Assembly: GCA_903884005.1 (NCBI GenBank)
Contig: CAISDA010000064.1
Span: forward strand, 124,001-188,000
Length of the DNA stretch: 64,000 nt
Direction of reading: 5' to 3'
Source of the DNA: an uncultured Ignavibacteriota bacterium
GTDB taxonomy: Bacteria; Bacteroidota; Ignavibacteria; UBA10030; UBA8401
Shown here: one piece after another, positions 16,581 through 47,638 of the stretch
Layout: each line of letters starts with the position of its first letter
How positions within the stretch are numbered: the first letter of the stretch is position 1
Position numbers and translations under genes: made by a program
The notes under the pieces: generated by a model
Databases searched by the model: none
What the model saw: the letters and a program-made list of their open reading frames with translations, nothing else
What the model was told of the DNA's origin: nothing

Positions 16581-18710
16581 ATGATAGGTCAAATAATTTC
16601 CCAGTACGAGATCGTCGAAAAATTAGGCGAAGGCGGCATGGGCGTCGTCTATAAGGCGCACGACACGAAGCTTGACCGTTTCGTCGCGCTCAAATTTCTC
16701 CCGCCGCACCTCTCCCGGTCAGAGGAGGACAGGGCCCGGTTCGTTCAGGAAGCGCAGGCCGCATCGGCGTTGAACCACCCCAATATCCTGACAATATTTG
16801 AATTCGACCGGAGCGGTGAACAATTCTTCATTGCCATGGAATTGGTGGAAGGGGAATCGCTGCGGGAAAAGCTCGATGATCAGAGATCGAAGGGTGCACT
16901 CCTCCCGCTCGATCGGGTGCTCGATTATGCGCAACAAATTGCAGAAGGACTGGCGAACGCGCACGACAAGGGGATCATTCACCGGGATATCAAGGCGGAC
17001 AATCTCATGATCACAAGGGATGGCCGTGTAAAAATCATGGACTTCGGACTCGCAAAGCTGCATGGCGGGTCGGGTATCACAAAAGCCGGGGCCGCGGTTG
17101 GGACGATTGCATCGATGTCGCCCGAGCAGATCGTTGCAGGCAGTGTTGACCATCGGGCCGACCTGTGGGCGTTCGGTGTCGTGCTGTATGAAATGCTGGC
17201 CGGCGAGCGGCCATTCAGAGGCGAACACGACGCGGCGATCATGTACGAGATCCTCAACATCGATCCGAAAGGCGTGCAATCGTTCCGAGCAGATGTGCCG
17301 GAGAATGTTCAGGCTCTTGTCGGACTGCTCCTCCAGAAGGAAGCAGCAAAACGGATCGGGTCTGCCTCTGAAGCCATGGGCATACTTAAAGCGCGGGCAA
17401 CACCCTCCATGAGCGCGCCGGAACAGAAGTCGATCGCGGTTCTGTATTTTGAAAATATGAGTTCGGACAAAGAAAGCGATTATTTTTGCGCCGGAATGAC
17501 AGAGGATCTTATCACGGATCTGTCGAAGATCAAAGAATTGAAGGTTGTCTCGCGGACCGACGTTCTTCCTCTTCGCAATAAGGAGGTCAACACACGCCAG
17601 GTCGGCGAACTATTAGGGGTGAATTATGTGTTAGAAGGAAGTGTGCGGAAGGCCGGGAATAAGATGCGCATCACCGGCCAGCTCATCGACGTTCGCTCGG
17701 GTTTTCATCTGTGGGCCGACAGGTTCGACAGGCTTGTGGAAGATATCTTCGATCTTCAAACCGAAGTCTCTCAGAAAATTGCAGAAGCACTGAAAGTGTC
17801 TCTTACCGATTCGGAAAAACAATCGCTTGCCCAGAAACCGACGGATGATCTTCGCGCGTATGATTTTTATATGCGGGGGAGAGATCTCCTCTATCGCCGC
17901 GGAAAGAAAAATAATGAAGCGGCGATCCAGATGTTCGAGAATGCGTTGTCGATGGATCCCAAGTTTGTTGCAGCCCTTGGGGCGCTTGCAGAGGCGTATT
18001 CGTATATGTTCTCATGGTACGACGGCCATCAACGATGGCTGGGAAAAACGATCGAGGTGAGCCACCGGGCGCTCGCCATCGATCCGAACTCCATCGCGGC
18101 ACAGTTCAGCACCGGCACTGTCTTTCATCATCAAAAACGATTCAGTGAAGCGAAACGGACGTGGGAGAAAGTAATCCATCAGGATCCCGATTTTTACGAT
18201 GCGTACCGATGGCTGGGGATCACATCGGATATTGCCGGCGAGTACGATGCGGCGCTCCGGTACTATGAACAATGCGCCCGGCTGAAGCCGTTCAGCGAAG
18301 AACCATGGATGCATATCGATATGACGCAGCGCAGGATGGGGAACACCGAGGCCTCCGATGCGGCGCAGAAGAAATTGATCGAGGTCGGCAGCCGGAAACT
18401 TGAAGTGAATCCCGATGATGCGGTCGCCTTGAGCCGCATGGCAGGGCCGCTCGCGCATTTTGGCAAAGTAGAAAAGGCGCATGCTGCGCTTACCAGAGTG
18501 CTTGAAATTGATTCCACCGATGGGTTGCTTCAATATAATTGCGCGTGCACGTACGCCGTCATGGGAAACACGAAGGAGGCGCTTGTGTGTCTTAAAAATG
18601 CGCTTCAGAGCGGTTATAAAAACGTCAACGAGTGGGTGAAGATGGACCCGGATCTTCTCTCCCTCCATACCGATCCGGAATATAATGCGCTCATCAAAGA
18701 AATAGGCTGA
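16581..18710 (+). CDS. Cytoplasmic Ser/Thr kinase with TolB-like and TPR domains
   Basis: 709 residues. Kinase motifs are complete ([39 protein letters not shown]), although the segment before SPEQ reads GTIASMSPEQ rather than the usual AYM. The kinase domain passes directly into a FlgO/TolB-N-like domain (KSIAVLYFENMSSDKESDYF, LGVNYVLEGSVRKAG) with no membrane helix that I can see, unlike its two upstream neighbours. TPR repeats (DPKFVAALGALAEAYSYM, DPNSIAAQFSTGTVFHHQ and others) complete the protein. This may be a soluble member of the array acting on shared substrates. Confidence 0.92.
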   Translation: MIGQIISQYEIVEKLGEGGMGVVYKAHDTKLDRFVALKFLPPHLSRSEEDRARFVQEAQAASALNHPNILTIFEFDRSGEQFFIAMELVEGESLREKLDDQRSKGALLPLDRVLDYAQQIAEGLANAHDKGIIHRDIKADNLMITRDGRVKIMDFGLAKLHGGSGITKAGAAVGTIASMSPEQIVAGSVDHRADLWAFGVVLYEMLAGERPFRGEHDAAIMYEILNIDPKGVQSFRADVPENVQALVGLLLQKEAAKRIGSASEAMGILKARATPSMSAPEQKSIAVLYFENMSSDKESDYFCAGMTEDLITDLSKIKELKVVSRTDVLPLRNKEVNTRQVGELLGVNYVLEGSVRKAGNKMRITGQLIDVRSGFHLWADRFDRLVEDIFDLQTEVSQKIAEALKVSLTDSEKQSLAQKPTDDLRAYDFYMRGRDLLYRRGKKNNEAAIQMFENALSMDPKFVAALGALAEAYSYMFSWYDGHQRWLGKTIEVSHRALAIDPNSIAAQFSTGTVFHHQKRFSEAKRTWEKVIHQDPDFYDAYRWLGITSDIAGEYDAALRYYEQCARLKPFSEEPWMHIDMTQRRMGNTEASDAAQKKLIEVGSRKLEVNPDDAVALSRMAGPLAHFGKVEKAHAALTRVLEIDSTDGLLQYNCACTYAVMGNTKEALVCLKNALQSGYKNVNEWVKMDPDLLSLHTDPEYNALIKEIG

Positions 18711-39827: not shown

Positions 39828-39961
39828 ACTCTTAGTAGAATATGTCTTGTGCAGACTTAAAAGTATCACTATGTCAGCTCCGGGAGCCCGCATGGAATCG
39901 TGCGGACTCCCGTCTTATGTAAATGGTTAGTTGTTCGCATGTAAACTTTTTAATTCTTATC

Positions 39962-40360
39962 ATGAAAGTACAATTATTCAGTCTATCCGACGGTGATCTG
40001 CTTCTGGAAGCAAAGAACGGCAATGATCAGGCGTTTACTGAATTAGTACGCCGTTACGGCCCCACAGTCTATGGCTTTTCAAACAAATTATGCCGTGATG
40101 CACAAAAGGCAAAAGAGGCGTACCAGGATATATTCATCAATGTGTATCGTGAACTCGATCAGTTCGACGGCAAATCGAAATTCTCGACGTGGCTCTATTC
40201 GATTGTGGCGAACCACTGTTTGATGCAGCACCGGAGGCGAAAGATGGATGCAGAAATTATGTCGCTCGATTCGCCCCGCCTCGGACAAAAAAACTCGAGC
40301 AGCTATGAATTGCCGTCGTGGGACGATTCTCCGATCGACTCATTGATACATAAAATGTGA
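39962..40360 (+). CDS. Truncated ECF sigma factor (region 2 only)
   Basis: 132 residues from ATG 39962. It carries sigma region 2 with LLLEAKNGNDQAFTELVRRYG, AYQDIFINVYRELDQFDGKS and FSTWLYSIVANHCL. It stops after SPIDSLIHKM, exactly where its neighbour continues into region 4, so the -35-recognition domain is missing. It is a diverged tandem copy of the next gene. It could be a decaying duplicate, or a small protein that still binds core polymerase or the anti-sigma factor. The frame is intact up to a clean stop. Confidence 0.75.
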   Translation: MKVQLFSLSDGDLLLEAKNGNDQAFTELVRRYGPTVYGFSNKLCRDAQKAKEAYQDIFINVYRELDQFDGKSKFSTWLYSIVANHCLMQHRRRKMDAEIMSLDSPRLGQKNSSSYELPSWDDSPIDSLIHKM

Positions 40361-40384: not shown

Positions 40385-40993
40385 ATGCCGCATCTCATGA
40401 AGAAAGAGCAATTACAAGCATTATCCGACGACGATCTTCTACAGGCTGCACGCACAGGAGACGAAAACGCATTTACGGAATTGGTAAACCGCTACGGATC
40501 GATGGTGCATGGATTTGCGTTCAAGTTGTGTCGCGACGCGCATAAGGCGGACGAATCGTACCAGGATACGTTTATCAACGTATATCGCAAACTCGACCAA
40601 TTTGACGGTAAATCGAAGTTTTCAACATGGCTCTATGCTATCGTTGCGAACAACTGTTTAATGTCTCATCGAAAACGAAAACTTGATGCAGAAATGGAAT
40701 CGCTCGATTCACCAAGTATGGAGAAGGATGAGCACGGTGCCAATTTCGTTCGATCGTGGGATGCTTCTCCCATTGATACATTGATGAATACAGAGTTACG
40801 CAAAAAATTGGATGAAGCGATACAAAAATTACCGCCTGGCTATCGTGTCGTTTTTGTGCTTCGCGATGTGGAACGTCAAACAGCGGAAGAAACTGCAAAA
40901 ATTCTCCGTCTATCGGTGCCGGCCGTAAAATCGCGACTCCGGCGTGCGCGAGTATTTTTAAGGGAACAGCTCAATCAGTATATGGTACAATGA
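40385..40993 (+). CDS. ECF-type RNA polymerase sigma factor
   Basis: 202 residues with both sigma domains. Region 2: AFTELVNRYGSMVHGFAFKL, SYQDTFINVYRKLDQFDGKS and FSTWLYAIVANNCLMSHRKR. Region 4: KLPPGYRVVFVLRDVERQTAEETAKILRLSVPAVKSRLRRAR, the complete helix-turn-helix that reads the -35 box. The stop overlaps the ATG of the following zinc anti-sigma gene (ATGA), so the two are translationally coupled. Regulates an unknown regulon, probably envelope or redox stress given the anti-sigma type. Confidence 0.95.
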   Translation: MPHLMKKEQLQALSDDDLLQAARTGDENAFTELVNRYGSMVHGFAFKLCRDAHKADESYQDTFINVYRKLDQFDGKSKFSTWLYAIVANNCLMSHRKRKLDAEMESLDSPSMEKDEHGANFVRSWDASPIDTLMNTELRKKLDEAIQKLPPGYRVVFVLRDVERQTAEETAKILRLSVPAVKSRLRRARVFLREQLNQYMVQ

Positions 40994-41549: not shown

Positions 41550-41801
41550 ATGGGGGAAAATTTGTTAACATCAATACGTGAGTATCTAAAAAATCCCAAT
41601 GCGAAACGCATCGCCGCATCAGTAGCCGGTGCGCTTGCTGGATTTGCCTATTACCACTATATCGGATGTGCATCGGGCACTTGTCCTATTACTGGTAATC
41701 CGTACATCAGCACAGCGTACGGAGCTCTTTTAGGGTATCTTCTTGTGCCAAAACAAAAAATTAAGCAAAACGCAAACAACGGTGGAACAACCGAAGCTTA
41801 A
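41550..41801 (+). CDS. DUF6132-family small membrane protein (copy 1)
   Basis: 83 residues. A membrane helix (AASVAGALAGFAYYHYIGC) is followed by CASGTCPITGNPYISTAYGALLGYLL, the typical GCxSGTCPITxNP core of DUF6132 proteins. The Cys pair sits at the membrane edge and may handle sulfur or metal; function unknown. A second, shorter copy follows after 11 bases. The 284 bases before it (41266-41549) contain no gene that I can support. Confidence 0.85.
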   Translation: MGENLLTSIREYLKNPNAKRIAASVAGALAGFAYYHYIGCASGTCPITGNPYISTAYGALLGYLLVPKQKIKQNANNGGTTEA

Positions 41802-41812
41802 ATTATTTACCT

Positions 41813-42016
41813 ATGGAAACGTCTATGATGGAAATGATCACATCTTTTCCTATAATGATATGGGTCGGCCGCATAACGCCGATCGCAATCGGTGCCGCCG
41901 GCGGCTATGCGTATTATAGATTTGTGGGATGCAAATCTGGAATGTGCCCGATCACGAGCAATCCGTGGATTAGCACGATCTATGGAGCAGTACTCGGAAG
42001 CATGTGGGCGCGTTAA
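41813..42016 (+). CDS. DUF6132-family small membrane protein (copy 2)
   Basis: 67 residues, or 62-63 if an internal ATG at 41825 or 41828 is used. Same core as copy 1: AIGAAGGYAYYRFVGCKSGM, then CPITSNPWISTIYGAVLG. The N-terminal segments differ, so the copies are diverged rather than recent. The pair may form a heteromeric membrane unit. It ends 44 bases before the NtrC-type regulator. Confidence 0.85.
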   Translation: METSMMEMITSFPIMIWVGRITPIAIGAAGGYAYYRFVGCKSGMCPITSNPWISTIYGAVLGSMWAR

Positions 42017-42060: not shown

Positions 42061-43419
42061 ATGGACTATGCGACGATCCTTCTTGTGGACGATGAACCCG
42101 CACAGCGGGAAATCCTTGCCGGTTATTTGAAAAAGAAAGGCCACCGTGTCTTTCAGGCCGGTTCGTACACACAGGCATTGGCTGTCTTTAAAGACTATGC
42201 GATCGATGCGGTATTCTCCGATTACCGAATGCCCGATAAGAATGGGGTCGATCTTCTCAAATCTCTCCGTGCACTTCAACCGGCGTTGGCGGTGGTGCTT
42301 ATGACGGCATTTGGTACGATTGAAAATGCCGTTGCCGCAATGCGCGAAGGTGCATATGATTATCTCACCAAACCGATCAACCTTGATGAATTGGACGTGC
42401 TGCTTCAGCGCATCATGGAGCGCCATCACCTTATCACGGAAAATAAAGAGCTGAAGGCTCAACTTTCTGAAAAATATTCGTTTTCCGGTATCGTCTCCCA
42501 ATCTGCTCCCATGGAGCAAGTCTTAAACGTGGCCGGACGGGTTGCGCAGAGCGATGCACCGATTCTGGTGCGTGGTGAAAGCGGAACGGGAAAAGAAGTG
42601 GTCGCAAAAGCAATTCACTTCGCGAGCGACCGAGCGGCACACCCCTATATCGCAGTAAATTGTGCAGCCTTGAACGAACAGCTTTTGGAGAGTGAACTCT
42701 TCGGACACGAACGCGGGGCATTCACTGGAGCCGAGCGTCAACGCCAGGGTAGATTCGAACTTGCAGACAGCGGCACGATCTTTCTCGACGAGATCGGAGA
42801 CATCTCGGCCGGCGCACAGGTGCGTCTGCTGCGCGTACTTCAAGAGCATCAATTCGAGCGTGTGGGCGGATCGGAGACATTGACGGTAGATGTTCGAGTG
42901 ATCGCAGCGACAAATAAAAATCTTGAACAGGCGATAGCAGGGGGAACATTTCGTGAAGATCTTTTCTACAGATTGAACGTCATCAGCATCGAGATTCCGC
43001 CGCTGCGCAAGCGTCGGGATGATATTGCGCCGCTGCTCGATTATTTCCTCCGAATGTATGCGGACAAAAATAAAAAGAAAGATGTCGTTTTTTCCAAGGA
43101 AGCGTGGGAGATCTTGCTTCGGTACGAATATCCGGGTAATGTGCGCGAACTCGAAAATATCGTGCAGCGCGCTGTTATTTTTTCTCGAGGAGAACAAATC
43201 ACAACTCGAGACCTGCCATTGCAACTCTCATCACATCAGCCCGAGCTATCGGATACAGCTTCTCTCTTAAACGGAACAATGCCTGAGGTCACGGCACGAA
43301 TAGAATCAATGATGATCGAAAAGGCATTGAAAGAAACCAATGGTAATCAGACAAAGGCTGCGCACACACTCGGCATTTCAGAACGGACGCTGCGCTATCG
43401 CCTGATGAAAGGCAAATAA
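42061..43419 (+). CDS. NtrC-family sigma-54 response regulator
   Basis: 452 residues from ATG 42061. The receiver domain (about 1-120) has DDE near the start, the phospho-acceptor Asp in AVFSDYRMPDK and Lys in YLTKP. The AAA+ domain (about 145-385) shows Walker A GESGTGKE, the sigma-54-contacting loop GAFTGA, Walker B GTIFLDEIGD and the arginine region FREDLFYRLNV. A Fis-type helix-turn-helix closes the protein (NGNQTKAAHTLGISERTLRYR). It activates sigma-54 promoters when phosphorylated. A candidate target with palindromic sites lies right downstream at 43431-43578, and a histidine kinase is encoded at 45620. Confidence 0.96.
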   Translation: MDYATILLVDDEPAQREILAGYLKKKGHRVFQAGSYTQALAVFKDYAIDAVFSDYRMPDKNGVDLLKSLRALQPALAVVLMTAFGTIENAVAAMREGAYDYLTKPINLDELDVLLQRIMERHHLITENKELKAQLSEKYSFSGIVSQSAPMEQVLNVAGRVAQSDAPILVRGESGTGKEVVAKAIHFASDRAAHPYIAVNCAALNEQLLESELFGHERGAFTGAERQRQGRFELADSGTIFLDEIGDISAGAQVRLLRVLQEHQFERVGGSETLTVDVRVIAATNKNLEQAIAGGTFREDLFYRLNVISIEIPPLRKRRDDIAPLLDYFLRMYADKNKKKDVVFSKEAWEILLRYEYPGNVRELENIVQRAVIFSRGEQITTRDLPLQLSSHQPELSDTASLLNGTMPEVTARIESMMIEKALKETNGNQTKAAHTLGISERTLRYRLMKGK

Positions 43420-43430
43420 CCACATCACGA

Positions 43431-43470
43431 TTCGACATAATTGTCGAAACACTTCGTCGATTGTGTCGGA
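43431..43470 (+). promoter_or_regulatory. Tandem palindromic upstream activating sites
   Basis: TTCGACA-TAAT-TGTCGAA (43431-43448) is a perfect 7-4-7 inverted repeat. A second, imperfect copy, TTCGTCGATTGTGTCGGA, starts at 43453, 22 bases from the first (two helical turns). They lie about 95-130 bases upstream of the sigma-54 promoter and directly after the regulator gene, the textbook layout for Fis-type enhancer binding. Confidence 0.7.
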
Positions 43471-43653: not shown

Positions 43654-44016
43654 ATGAAACGCATTCTCAATATCACATTCGCATTTGTCCTCGTTTCCTC
43701 ACTCGTGCTCCTTGCTTCGAATTCGGTGTCCGCTCAGACGAAGACTGGTACTGGTCAACGCGGTGCAATGTTCGTCGATAAAGATGGCGACGGGATCTGT
43801 GACAACGTCGGGACACATGCCGGTCAGGGAATGAACAAAGCGGCAGGCAAACGCGGTCAGGGAGCCGGCAACGGAACAGGCACTGGCAGCATGGGCAAAG
43901 GCGCGGGCATGGGAACGGGCGTATGCACCGGAACCGGCACGGGTACTGGCACAGGAACAGGCACGGGCGTCTGCGATGGAACCGGTCCTAAAGGTGCGGC
44001 ACGCGGTCGCAAGTAA
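43654..44016 (+). CDS. Secreted Gly/Thr-rich protein with calcium-loop motif
   Basis: 120 residues from ATG 43654, with TTTGGAGG upstream. A signal peptide (cleavage near SVSAQ) is followed by MFVDKDGDGICDN, which matches the DxDxDG calcium-binding loop. The rest is low complexity: runs of GTG, GMG and KGAG, with an imperfect repeat of GTGTGTG around residues 90-108. Similar short secreted proteins with FVDxDGDGICD are known but uncharacterised. It is the first gene after the sigma-54 promoter. The sequence suggests a metal-responsive or extracellular structural peptide; the role is not known. Confidence 0.8.
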   Translation: MKRILNITFAFVLVSSLVLLASNSVSAQTKTGTGQRGAMFVDKDGDGICDNVGTHAGQGMNKAAGKRGQGAGNGTGTGSMGKGAGMGTGVCTGTGTGTGTGTGTGVCDGTGPKGAARGRK

Positions 44017-44143
44017 TGAACTGTGACAACATCGGGGCATGTTCGGCCAATGCCCCGATGTTTTATTGTGCAAAATTTCTGACGAAGTATGATGATCGAG
44101 GTAAGAATAAATAGAGTCTATCTCGCTTAAGAAAGAATAAAAA

Positions 44144-44431
44144 ATGAAACGATGGATTATAGCAGCAATGCTTATCGCTAGCACGGGATTTGCACACGCG
44201 CAAAGTGCGGATTCAAGCAGACAGAGATATCGGGGAGGAGAGCGGACGAATTCCCCGGGGACAACACCGCGGACAGTTCGGTTCGTTGACAGAGACGGTG
44301 ATGGCATTTGTGATGAACGTGCATCCGGACTTGGATTTCGGCGAGGCGCACAGGGAATGACCATGGACGCGGGCACCGGAATCGGCGCAGGGCAAGGGCG
44401 TGGCAAGAAACTTCAAAAAGGGCGAAAGTAA
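44144..44431 (+). CDS. Second secreted calcium-loop protein
   Basis: 95 residues with a signal peptide (ending FAHAQ) and the same core FVDRDGDGICDERA as the preceding gene, then a Gly/Arg/Lys-rich tail ending GRK as in copy 1. The conserved nine-residue loop amid dissimilar flanks implies that the loop is the functional part. Its stop overlaps the start of the barrel protein by one base, so these are translationally coupled. Confidence 0.8.
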   Translation: MKRWIIAAMLIASTGFAHAQSADSSRQRYRGGERTNSPGTTPRTVRFVDRDGDGICDERASGLGFRRGAQGMTMDAGTGIGAGQGRGKKLQKGRK

Positions 44432-45552
44432 TGAAGAAGCACATCGTGTGGACAGTAGTAAGCGTAGTACTAGGAACAGTGTCTGCGATATCGCAGTTCA
44501 GCGTTACGGTTGGAACAACAGGGATGGCCGACGACAATGTGAGCAACAGCTACGAACGAGGATCAGATAGGGTCACGCTATTCAATCTGAAACCTTCATA
44601 TGAGTTGAATTCCGATGCGACATCGACACAATTCTGGTATGATGGATCTTTTGCATTTTACAGCAACTTCGCAGACAGAACATTTCAATATCATTCAGTC
44701 GGCATAACACATACACGGACATTCGGCGACGAAGATGCCGGTACGATGGAATTCAGCGGCGACTATGCCACGCGCAGAAATCGGGAGTCGTTCACACTCT
44801 TCGATCACACGACGTTTGGCCTTGCAGCAGCGGCTGGATATTATTTTACAGAAAAATTTGCCGGGGCGGTGCGCTATGCATTCCATTCCATGACATTCGC
44901 TCAGCTCGGTGATTTCGATTATCGTGAACACGTCATCTCCTTAAAACAGTCACTTCAGCTGTTTCCAACAACAACGATCATTTTTCACAACGAAGTTGGT
45001 ATAAAAAACTATTCGCGGTCCATTGGTACAGACAGCGCTCTGCTTACACAGGGAGGCTCGATGAGCGGGAAGCTACAGCGTACAGTACAGCTAATCTCTT
45101 CACTTCGCATCGGACAATCCCTTGGTGAGATGACGGGAGTAAGTCTCTCGGCGGGCTACAGGTACAACTTTCAGCAGTCGGCACGCTATCTTGCGAGCGA
45201 GTATGGTACGCTCTCGGAGGACGAACTTTTCAACGACCATTACGGGTATGAGGGGCTCCGTGGAGGAGTGTTACTTACGCAATTGCTGCCTTCTGATATC
45301 ACTCTGCGCCTCCGGTTCGATCATGAGCAGCGCGACTACGCCCTCCTTGCTGCCTATGACCTCGCTGGGCTGCAAACTGCCACAATGCGGCAGGATGCAC
45401 ATAGTGTGTATTCCGCCGTTGTTGAAAAAAAGTGGTCGAACTTTCCATTGACCTTGATGCTCAGCTATGAGTACATTAAGAATGTGTCGAATGATGCATA
45501 CTATAAATATACGAACAACGTATTCTCTGTCGGATTGACAGTCCCATTTTGA
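44431..45552 (+). CDS. Outer-membrane beta-barrel protein
   Basis: 373 residues. A signal peptide (ending TVSAISQ) is followed by alternating amphipathic beta strands such as TQFWYDGSFAFYSNF, HVISLKQSLQLF and LSLSAGYRYNFQQ-type segments. The last residues, FSVGLTVPF, end with the C-terminal Phe typical of barrel proteins inserted by BamA. I count roughly 14-18 possible strands. No named family recognised. Coupling to the secreted calcium-loop protein suggests a joint envelope role such as export or anchoring. Confidence 0.8.
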   Translation: MKKHIVWTVVSVVLGTVSAISQFSVTVGTTGMADDNVSNSYERGSDRVTLFNLKPSYELNSDATSTQFWYDGSFAFYSNFADRTFQYHSVGITHTRTFGDEDAGTMEFSGDYATRRNRESFTLFDHTTFGLAAAAGYYFTEKFAGAVRYAFHSMTFAQLGDFDYREHVISLKQSLQLFPTTTIIFHNEVGIKNYSRSIGTDSALLTQGGSMSGKLQRTVQLISSLRIGQSLGEMTGVSLSAGYRYNFQQSARYLASEYGTLSEDELFNDHYGYEGLRGGVLLTQLLPSDITLRLRFDHEQRDYALLAAYDLAGLQTATMRQDAHSVYSAVVEKKWSNFPLTLMLSYEYIKNVSNDAYYKYTNNVFSVGLTVPF

Positions 45553-45619: not shown

Positions 45620-47638
45620 ATGCAGCTTCCTACAACGAGAGCAATACGACCAGCCCATATCATAATCATTGCGGTCTTATTGGCAGTGGTGATGGTTGTG
45701 TCTGCCGTCATCGAACTCAGACAATCGCGAAACGAACTGTTCCATCTGATGCGCGAAGAAGCGTTGTCCCTCGTCGAAACCGTTGACCAAAGCAGTAATA
45801 ATATCATCCTTTCCACCGAAAAAATTGAAGAAGCACTCGCCGAGCGTCTCTTCAATAACGCGTATTTCATAGCAAGGCTCGATAGTGCCGGGAGACTGAC
45901 GCAAAGAGAACTTCAGGCGATTGCTGCAGCTAACTCAATCTTCCGAATAAACATCATCGATAACACTGGAAGAAAGGTGCTGGGAAACACGCTGCCGGAT
46001 CGAGAACACAGAGGGATGCAGGAGCAGCGCTCACCTCGTGAGACCTTGCAACCAATTCTCGAAGGAACTGCGGACAAATTACTGATCGGTCTCCGGGAAC
46101 CGCGCTTTCAGGAGGGGAAACGGTTTATCGTTGCCGTTCGGCGGACAGGGAAAGCACATGGGGCGATCGTATTGAATCTGAATGCCGATGCGATGCTTGA
46201 ACTGCGGAAAACGATCGGCATCGGGAAACTCATGAAAGATCTGGGTGACAATGAAGGTGTTGTCTATGCAGTGTTGCAAGACAAGGAGGGAATACTTGCG
46301 GCCGGAGGGAAGGTGACAGAAATATCAGCGATCGGTGCCGATTCTCTATTACAATACTGCGCTGAGCGCGACACTGTAGTTACACGGATTATTTCAGGTA
46401 AAACGGGTGAATTATTTGAAGTAATTCGGCATTTTAAAGTTGGCGGTGTAACGCTTGGAATATTTCGCCTCGGTTTTTCAATGGATGAAATTCATGCTAC
46501 AGAGGAGCGAATGCAGCGGCGGATGATCATCATGACGCTGGTATTGTTTGCAATTGCTTTCCTTGCTGTCGCGTCGGTCGTTGCCATGCAAAACTATACA
46601 CGCCTCGGGAAAAAATATACGGTCATGCAAACAATGACTGGTAATATTCTTGAACGCATGAGCGATACGGTCATTTCCATCGACGGGGGGCAACATGTCA
46701 CACTCTTTAATAGAGAAGCTGAACGGCTGTTCGACACCGAGGGACAGACGGTAGTAGGGAAAAGAATTGATGAAATCGGAGATCCAGTCGCACGCTGTTT
46801 AGGAGAAATATTTACTGCCAAAGATGGTGCTGAGATCGAACTACACTGTGGTCGCGGTACCAGATATGTATCAGTTGCAGTATCAGAAAGCGACGGCGGC
46901 GAAGGAGGGGCCATCAAAACTGCAGTAGTCCGCGATATGACGGACACACGTATCTTAGAAAAGGAAATGGTGCGCCGGGAAAAATTAACAGCTATGGGGG
47001 AACTTGCATCAGGCGTTGCTCACGAGATCCGAAATCCGTTGAATGCCATTGCAATGATCGCCCAGAGGTTCCTCCGTGAATTTACACCGAGAAAAGGTGC
47101 GAAAGAATATCGAATGCTTGCCGGCGTGCTACAGTCAGAAGCCCAGCGAATGAATGGTATCGTACAGCAATTTCTCCGTTTTGCCCGTCCTCCCGGACTG
47201 AGAAAAGAAATTGTACCAGTTCAACCTTTCCTTGATCATGTATCCTCGCTTTTCGGGCCCCAGGCGGCTGAAAAGGGGATTGCCCTCACCGTTACACATG
47301 ACGGTGCGACAGCGTGGTCGTTCGATAGAGAACAGCTGACGCAGGCACTCCTTAACCTCTTGCAGAATGCACTCGATGCAACAGAACGCGGCAGTATCGA
47401 GTTGGCAGTACGCGAAACTGATTCAGGTCTTACCGTCACAGTAACTGATTCAGGGGTAGGCATTCCCGAGGAAGATAAAGAGAAAATATTCAATCTCTAT
47501 TTTACAACGAAACAACACGGAACCGGACTTGGTCTTCCTTCTGTTCACCAAATTGTAGCACAACATGATGGAACGCTTGAGGTGTCAAGTGAAATTGGGA
47601 AGGGGGCTGCATTCACTATTGTCCTGCCGAAGGGATAA
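45620..47638 (+). CDS. PAS-containing sensor histidine kinase
   Basis: 672 residues. TM1 (about 12-32, IIIIAVLLAVVMVVSAVI) and TM2 (about 297-320, ending ASVVAMQNY) enclose a ~260-residue extracytoplasmic sensor. A PAS domain follows (MSDTVISIDGGQHVTLFNRE). The HisKA motif is ELASGVAHEIRNPLNA with the phospho-accepting His, and the HATPase domain has LLNLLQNALDATE, DSGVGIPEED and GTGLGLPSVHQIV. It is the likely partner of the NtrC-type regulator at 42061, with the secreted and barrel proteins lying between them. No clear ribosome site precedes the ATG. Confidence 0.95.
   Translation: MQLPTTRAIRPAHIIIIAVLLAVVMVVSAVIELRQSRNELFHLMREEALSLVETVDQSSNNIILSTEKIEEALAERLFNNAYFIARLDSAGRLTQRELQAIAAANSIFRINIIDNTGRKVLGNTLPDREHRGMQEQRSPRETLQPILEGTADKLLIGLREPRFQEGKRFIVAVRRTGKAHGAIVLNLNADAMLELRKTIGIGKLMKDLGDNEGVVYAVLQDKEGILAAGGKVTEISAIGADSLLQYCAERDTVVTRIISGKTGELFEVIRHFKVGGVTLGIFRLGFSMDEIHATEERMQRRMIIMTLVLFAIAFLAVASVVAMQNYTRLGKKYTVMQTMTGNILERMSDTVISIDGGQHVTLFNREAERLFDTEGQTVVGKRIDEIGDPVARCLGEIFTAKDGAEIELHCGRGTRYVSVAVSESDGGEGGAIKTAVVRDMTDTRILEKEMVRREKLTAMGELASGVAHEIRNPLNAIAMIAQRFLREFTPRKGAKEYRMLAGVLQSEAQRMNGIVQQFLRFARPPGLRKEIVPVQPFLDHVSSLFGPQAAEKGIALTVTHDGATAWSFDREQLTQALLNLLQNALDATERGSIELAVRETDSGLTVTVTDSGVGIPEEDKEKIFNLYFTTKQHGTGLGLPSVHQIVAQHDGTLEVSSEIGKGAAFTIVLPKG

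Follow-up and report, generated by a model that had tools for sequence, protein, structure and literature searches.

What do two adjacent genes for short secreted proteins, each with one calcium-type loop, contribute to the bacterium that carries them, and do they form a unit by themselves? The genes, here called A and B, lie in a stretch of 64,000 nucleotides (hereafter the window) of contig CAISDA010000064.1, GenBank assembly GCA_903884005.1, from an uncultured Ignavibacteriota bacterium with a genome of 4.5 Mb. An earlier note on this DNA had treated positions 43654-44431 as the unit. The actual unit is larger and includes a regulator, control sites, an outer-membrane barrel and a kinase, with the gene order NtrC-type regulator, A, B, 16-stranded outer-membrane barrel and dCache sensor kinase (Table 1). 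Many related bacteria carry this module as well, apparently an undescribed envelope-sensing system. On balance, we favor the reading that it is a self-contained envelope-signaling system resembling ZraPSR of Escherichia coli, in which an unrelated small protein with a metal loop would serve as output or feedback partner.

Table 1. Features of the module, in window coordinates (HTH, helix-turn-helix; ORF, open reading frame; pLDDT, predicted local distance difference test score)
Feature	Position	Strand	Basis
NtrC-type response regulator: receiver, sigma-54 activator AAA+ domain, Fis-type HTH	42061..43419	+	Pfam Response_reg, Sigma54_activat, HTH_8, all over cut-off
Putative upstream activator site 1, perfect palindrome TTCGACA-TAAT-TGTCGAA, TTCGACATAATTGTCGAA	43431..43448	.	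Recurs 5′ of A in relatives
Putative upstream activator site 2, imperfect copy, 3 mismatches, 22 bp from site 1	43453..43470	.	Sequence
Sigma-54 type -24/-12 promoter TGGCACGCTTGTTGAA	43563..43578	+	Similar distance kept in relatives; rpoN in genome
Secreted DxDG protein A, 120 aa	43654..44016	+	ORF list; signal peptide, then Gly/Thr-rich body, CDGTGPKG near C-terminus
Calcium-type loop of A, FVDKDGDGICDN	43771..43806	+	Sequence pattern
Terminator-like hairpin, 13-bp stem, T-rich tail, possible attenuator	44028..44062	+	Between A and B; similar elements in relatives
Secreted DxDG protein B, 95 aa	44144..44431	+	ORF list, relatives
Calcium-type loop of B, FVDRDGDGICDE	44282..44317	+	Sequence pattern
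Outer-membrane beta-barrel, 373 aa, 16 strands predicted	44431..45552	+	AlphaFold2 pLDDT 91.5; matches solved outer-membrane barrels
Sensor histidine kinase: dCache-like periplasmic domain, HisKA, HATPase_c	45620..47638	+	Pfam; sensor-domain model and fold matches

Module structure is conserved among relatives. B-like matches were present in 31/100 genomes searched, the window's own genome included. Across 31 loci from its own order (the window and loci L051-L080), a hand count from the feature listing gave the barrel in 31, the kinase in 27 (L072 is partial, and a 56-bit end piece in L078 is left out) and the regulator in 24; several of the missing genes fall at contig ends. The regulator is also conserved near A/B in relatives, and related modules, often with the A-type gene only, are found on contigs titled Melioribacteraceae, Calditrichota, KSB1, Aminicenantes and Vicinamibacterales. 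Some loci have an extra small secreted-type gene between A and B (L056 9637-10077, L060 9776-10216, L065 8851-9288, L079 9744-10220 and L080 6406-6849), and the three products tested (L056, L060, L079) match no Pfam family over cut-off. Locus L081, with large proteins and a similar loop, and L161 and L269, both without a loop gene by the filter, yielded nothing for the module.

Two-component control of A, which the earlier note proposed, is well supported at the sequence level by a candidate sigma-54-type promoter and tandem activator-like sites that are conserved in relatives. Sigma-54 itself (rpoN) is encoded in the genome. A sigma-54 site (≤2 mismatches, within 160 bp) lies upstream of 64/126 loop genes vs. 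1.3% of dinucleotide shuffles, and the palindrome (≤2 mismatches, within 350 bp) upstream of 41/126 vs. 0.12%, where the denominator of 126 includes downstream B genes and loop genes outside the module. For these counts and the density, partner and lineage counts below, 18 duplicate loci with identical feature maps were removed; L268, which is probably the same place as L162, and the near-identical archaeal L139 and L140 were all left in. A second activator-like site (≤5 mismatches) is present in 38/49 module loci, at a spacing of 22 bp in 29 and 21 bp in 6, vs. 0/49 in shuffles that keep base composition only, one per locus (50 hand-picked module A genes, less L113 with its short upstream region). 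Sites about two helical turns apart are expected for NtrC-type activators, and the 22- and 21-bp spacings fit this phasing. In L082, L120, L150 and L174 the two genes do not stand together, and A and B are each preceded by their own, weaker sites, with 0-3 mismatches to the sigma-54 site and 3-4 to the palindrome.

The window's own genome has 9 exact sigma-54-like sites, and the palindrome (≤3 mismatches) is upstream of 1/9, that at A. The regulator may be dedicated to the operon at A, with other targets possible. Among the palindrome matches listed in this genome two are perfect, and the second was rejected as a control site since it lies inside the coding sequence of a sigma factor. A one-mismatch copy, TTCGACAGGCTTGTGGAA, is found at 17724-17741 of the window, and the same sequence recurs at G000:C54:84811.

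A terminator-like hairpin follows A in 22/43 loci (hand-picked A genes) vs. 1.95 in shuffles that keep base composition only. A standard hairpin scan, limited to loops of 3-8 nt, did not list the hairpin of the window because its loop is 9 nt. The hairpin would act as an attenuator, so that A should be the main product while B, the barrel and the kinase would be limited.

The genes A and B are real and encode two proteins of secreted type, as the earlier note held: both have ORFs, signal-peptide-like N-termini and conserved counterparts in relatives, and both end in the basic GRK that it had pointed out. Each protein has one DxDGDGICD loop. The claim that FVDxDGDGICD is all they share did not survive comparison, as a single BLASTP alignment of A with B (E = 1e-8) runs through the N-terminus, the loop and Gly-rich sequence. 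Their bodies are low-complexity and of two types, as described, and each has conserved sequence of its own: a GPxDGTG...CDGTGPKG signature in A-type proteins and a GLGFRRG-like tail in many B-type proteins. The loop is the most conserved part of A/B among orthologue sequences, in agreement with the earlier note, and a loop of this type is present in the orthologues read. The Cys said to accompany it is less constant, since several A orthologues (L055, L056, L060, L065, L068, L069, L070, L079, L080, L082) have thrombospondin-3-like loops, single or tandem, with no Cys at that place.

The loop has the residues of a Dx[DN]xDG loop with a downstream acidic ligand (D1, D/N3, D/N5, G6, D9), positions that are partly imposed by the search pattern. 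A degenerate DNA pattern for it matched in 10/296 genomes of the phylum; because the reversed pattern matched in 0/296, the loop is not a chance match. The accessible part of PMC3123361 describes Dx[DN]xDG motifs as binding calcium in many folds, mostly extracytoplasmic. Thrombospondin type 3 repeats share the DxDGDGxxD loop, and some A orthologues have DxDGDGIPNxxDPDF, either single or after a DxNGDGxxD loop; in contrast to the long arrays of those repeats, the proteins of the window are very short and have one loop with a Cys. Neither A nor B belongs to a Pfam or NCBIfam family, and Pfam searches up to E = 1 gave no match to Metal_resist (PF13801), LTXXQ, TSP_3, EF-hand or dockerin. A sub-threshold TcdB_toxin_midN match for B (13.3 of 24.8 bits) was taken as chance, a third match in the own genome (L002, E 0.1) was dropped because its ORF list has no loop protein, and plasmid records contained no match to A. 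The earlier note considered the function of such proteins undescribed, and we too found no description of them in the literature searched, which left out most subscription journals; the accessible part of PMC5492636 has nothing on this locus.

Models of the two membrane proteins indicate their general types. The sensor-domain model of the kinase (pLDDT 85.4) has many dCache ligand-binding and DctB sensor domains in its Foldseek top 50 (E ~1e-8 to 1e-6, query TM 0.30-0.46), consistent with the double Cache periplasmic domain of dCache sensor kinases, and a PAS-like stretch between the dCache-like domain, HisKA and HATPase_c stays below the Pfam cut-off. Since the kinase carries its own dCache-like sensor domain, a place for A and B among the outputs or feedback partners is likelier than one as primary sensors; they may have a part in the metal or surface sensing suggested in the earlier note. 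The ATG of the barrel overlaps the stop codon of B. Its model has 16 strands by hand count, the first at residue 21, and no further domain. Foldseek and VIA-align picked out no single barrel family, and neither the barrel nor the kinase sensor had an informative sequence match among solved structures.

The closest functional parallel is ZraPSR, in which, according to the accessible text of PMC8249747, ZraR is an NtrC-family regulator with zraP/zraSR as its main target and the periplasmic Zn protein ZraP is an accessory of the pathway. Both systems have an NtrC-family regulator, a membrane kinase and a small exported protein with a metal site, predicted in the case of A and B, under control of that regulator, and the small-protein gene A is preceded, like the ZraR target, by a sigma-54-type promoter sequence, here with activator-like sites 5′ of the gene. 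Unlike ZraP, A and B lack ZraP-type families and are instead loop-based and Gly-rich, and the operon of the window adds an outer-membrane barrel. The kinase and regulator score far below the NCBIfam cut-offs for ZraS (219.3 of 479 bits) and ZraR (435.8 of 760). As the sequences place A/B outside ZraP and the kinase and regulator outside ZraS and ZraR, we say that the module works like ZraPSR, not that it is one.

Gene order, control elements, export signals and the barrel and sensor folds are supported by computation, and from them we infer a possible course of events. The kinase would sense an extracytoplasmic condition via its dCache-like domain and phosphorylate the NtrC-type regulator, which would bind the two palindromic sites in helical phase and drive the sigma-54 promoter of A. 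Much A would be made, and the hairpin would pass a smaller amount of transcript on to B, the barrel and the kinase; as the kinase would come from the same transcript, positive feedback could result. Once exported, A and B would bind a divalent cation, most likely calcium, via the DxDGDGxxD loop. Beyond the inner membrane, such plentiful metal-loop proteins would form the output or give feedback, and they may leave the cell or dock through the co-encoded barrel. With a defined promoter, activator-like sites, a sensor and a small output protein, the module offers a whole uncharacterized circuit that can be tested at once.

Genes for other proteins join the module in some relatives. These encode DUF2202, a DUF4405 membrane protein, a multiheme cytochrome accompanied by an outer-membrane protein, or a small secreted protein that no Pfam family covers, and they lie in or beside the module. 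Counted without a shuffle control, both control signals are found upstream of 6/17 DUF2202 and 2/7 multiheme genes and of 0/68 barrel, 0/63 kinase, 0/49 regulator and 0/13 DUF4405 genes. The signal-bearing partner gene is divergent from A in L061, L070, L071, L078 and L119, where it may share the activator sites of A, and apart from A in L073, L106 and L152. Given that similar signals also precede some DUF2202 and multiheme genes, the response probably has to do with metals or redox state at the envelope. DUF2202, which we take to have a ferritin-like fold, has solved archaeal relatives (MJ0754 entries), and no paper on DUF2202 or MJ0754 was found in the literature searched, in which few subscription journals were covered.

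Loop proteins also occur beyond the module. A scan of genome contigs found at least 166 relatives, of which 80 were kept, and around matches in Clostridia, Bacteroidales and Chloroflexi the loop pattern was present in 6/295, 3/198 and 24/199 genomes, respectively, search centers included. Lineage groups were taken from record titles or the search center, counts by lineage are not independent events, and L158 (Clostridiales) was placed under "other," its neighbors being those of the sigma-54 module. A gene for an extracytoplasmic function (ECF) sigma factor lies within 400 bp of the loop gene in 12/12 Clostridia and 7/7 Bacteroidales loci. Within 2 kb, Chloroflexi loci have an OmpR regulator in 10/25 cases, an ECF gene in 2/25 and neither in 13/25. 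Pfam confirmed the sigma factor in 3/3 loci tested (L129, L143, L160), and in Clostridia and Bacteroidales neighborhoods it identified an RsgI_M anti-sigma type in 3/3 and Metal_resist in 2/2 proteins tested, with no family over cut-off for two other candidate anti-sigma proteins (L171, L160). These loci resemble known ECF sigma operons with RsgI-like anti-sigma or Metal_resist partners, whereas the module of the window combines sigma-54 with a two-component system. We tentatively suggest that small secreted calcium-type-loop proteins of several bacterial phyla and some archaea are an unnamed widespread class and that in bacteria they could be extracytoplasmic partners of sigma-54 two-component, ECF sigma and OmpR two-component systems, through which extracellular calcium or another cation would bear on the control of envelope genes. 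If loop proteins do accompany envelope signaling across phyla, they would be a common, overlooked part of bacterial surface sensing and would offer a way into DUF2202 and into what extracellular calcium does in these lineages.

Some individual loci are also worth recording. In Bacteroidales, ZraP/CpxP-like Metal_resist proteins are encoded downstream of the loop gene and the ECF sigma gene (L171 10506-11066, L176 10329-10913). Larger lipoprotein-like proteins in L085 (3882-4514) and L086 (8945-9631) have repeated FxDxNxDGICDYAQDGSPTWHGPGF-like units with His-rich spacers, possibly a related loop family. An archaeal lipoprotein-like protein with a DDDGDGIPNKDDPDF loop is encoded directly 3′ of the loop gene in L179 (9487-9780).

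Several observations weigh against a ZraPSR-like role for the module and a signaling role for loop proteins in general. The sigma-54 pattern is not enriched across the own genome (9 matches vs. 11 for the reversed control), so that the weight of the site rests on its conservation. The palindrome (≤2 mismatches) occurs at 54 places there vs. 9 in the control, and as few of these were inspected the regulator may have further targets. In NCBIfam the kinase scores highest against AtoS (234.5 of 646) and the regulator against AtoC (502.3 of 714), also below cut-off. As the kinase has its own sensor domain, sensing may not require A and B, whose low-complexity bodies could be structural. Finally, no signaling gene lies within 2 kb in 20/52 "other," 13/25 Chloroflexi, 5/31 own-order and 4/4 archaeal loci, counts in which some contigs are short and two more of the 52 "other" loci have no loop gene by the filter; loop proteins may therefore work without such a gene.

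One alternative gives A and B a structural role, as surface or matrix proteins of a redox-active cell exterior with multiheme cytochromes, a DUF4405 membrane protein and the barrel, a layer that the two-component system simply switches on and in which calcium only stabilizes the fold. The multiheme, DUF4405 and DUF2202 genes in or beside the module of several relatives, the similar control signals of some DUF2202 and multiheme genes, the probable place of A as most abundant product (as deduced from the hairpin) and the suitability of Gly-rich low-complexity bodies for a matrix all agree with it. We nevertheless consider such a layer rather unlikely, as the window has no multiheme gene between regulator and kinase, multiheme genes are confined to a minority of loci, and the loop genes of Clostridia and Bacteroidales stand by ECF sigma genes without these neighbors in the stretches examined. 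Quite improbable, in our view, is that the barrel is a dedicated exporter with A/B as cargo, as in two-partner or Slam-type secretion, and that the loop aids folding in calcium-rich surroundings after export. The barrel gene does directly follow B in the window and is never missing from the own-order loci, and its model scores highest in VIA-align against the TpsB transporters CdiB and FhaC (Z 20.9-20.2). However, porins come next at 18-20, nearly equal, so that only the general type of outer-membrane barrel follows from these scores; TpsB membership was rejected because the model has no POTRA domains ahead of the barrel. The barrels of the window and L053 likewise pass the Pfam cut-off for SlipAM, the C-terminal barrel of Slam, but 7/8 other family barrels tested fall below it, and with strands from residue 21 and a mature model that is barrel only, there is no N-terminal TPR domain to support Slam membership.

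The reading of the module as a ZraPSR-like system would gain little from loop proteins elsewhere if the loop were a convergent short motif, with proteins beside ECF and OmpR systems in other phyla unrelated to A/B and uninformative on the module of the window. Convergence of the Dx[DN]xDG loop is known to be possible, according to the accessible part of PMC3123361, and outside the module little beyond the loop and its flanks is held in common. Gene densities within 2 kb of loop genes vs. more than 5 kb away, obtained with ECF, OmpR and kinase profiles seeded from some of the loci counted, were 0.050 vs. 0.012 per kb for ECF, 0.066 vs. 0.008 for NtrC, 0.112 vs. 0.019 for kinases and 0.022 vs. 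0.017 for OmpR; OmpR is thus not clearly enriched overall near loop genes, as convergence would allow. Conversely, the ECF gene beside every Clostridia and Bacteroidales loop gene is hard to square with the low far-off ECF density, and an F/Y/W-V/I flank ahead of the loop recurs. We therefore regard convergence as a somewhat doubtful account of these proteins.

Other genes lie close to the module in the window. Two adjacent small DUF6132 proteins, both with a CxSGxCPIT motif, are encoded directly 5′ of the regulator (41550-41801 and 41813-42016), and in the nearest relative, L051, a DUF6132 gene is also found ahead of the regulator. Farther upstream are two neighboring sigma-70 family genes (39923-40360 and 40385-40993), the first of which is short (145 aa), resembles by eye the front of its neighbor and may be a truncated copy.
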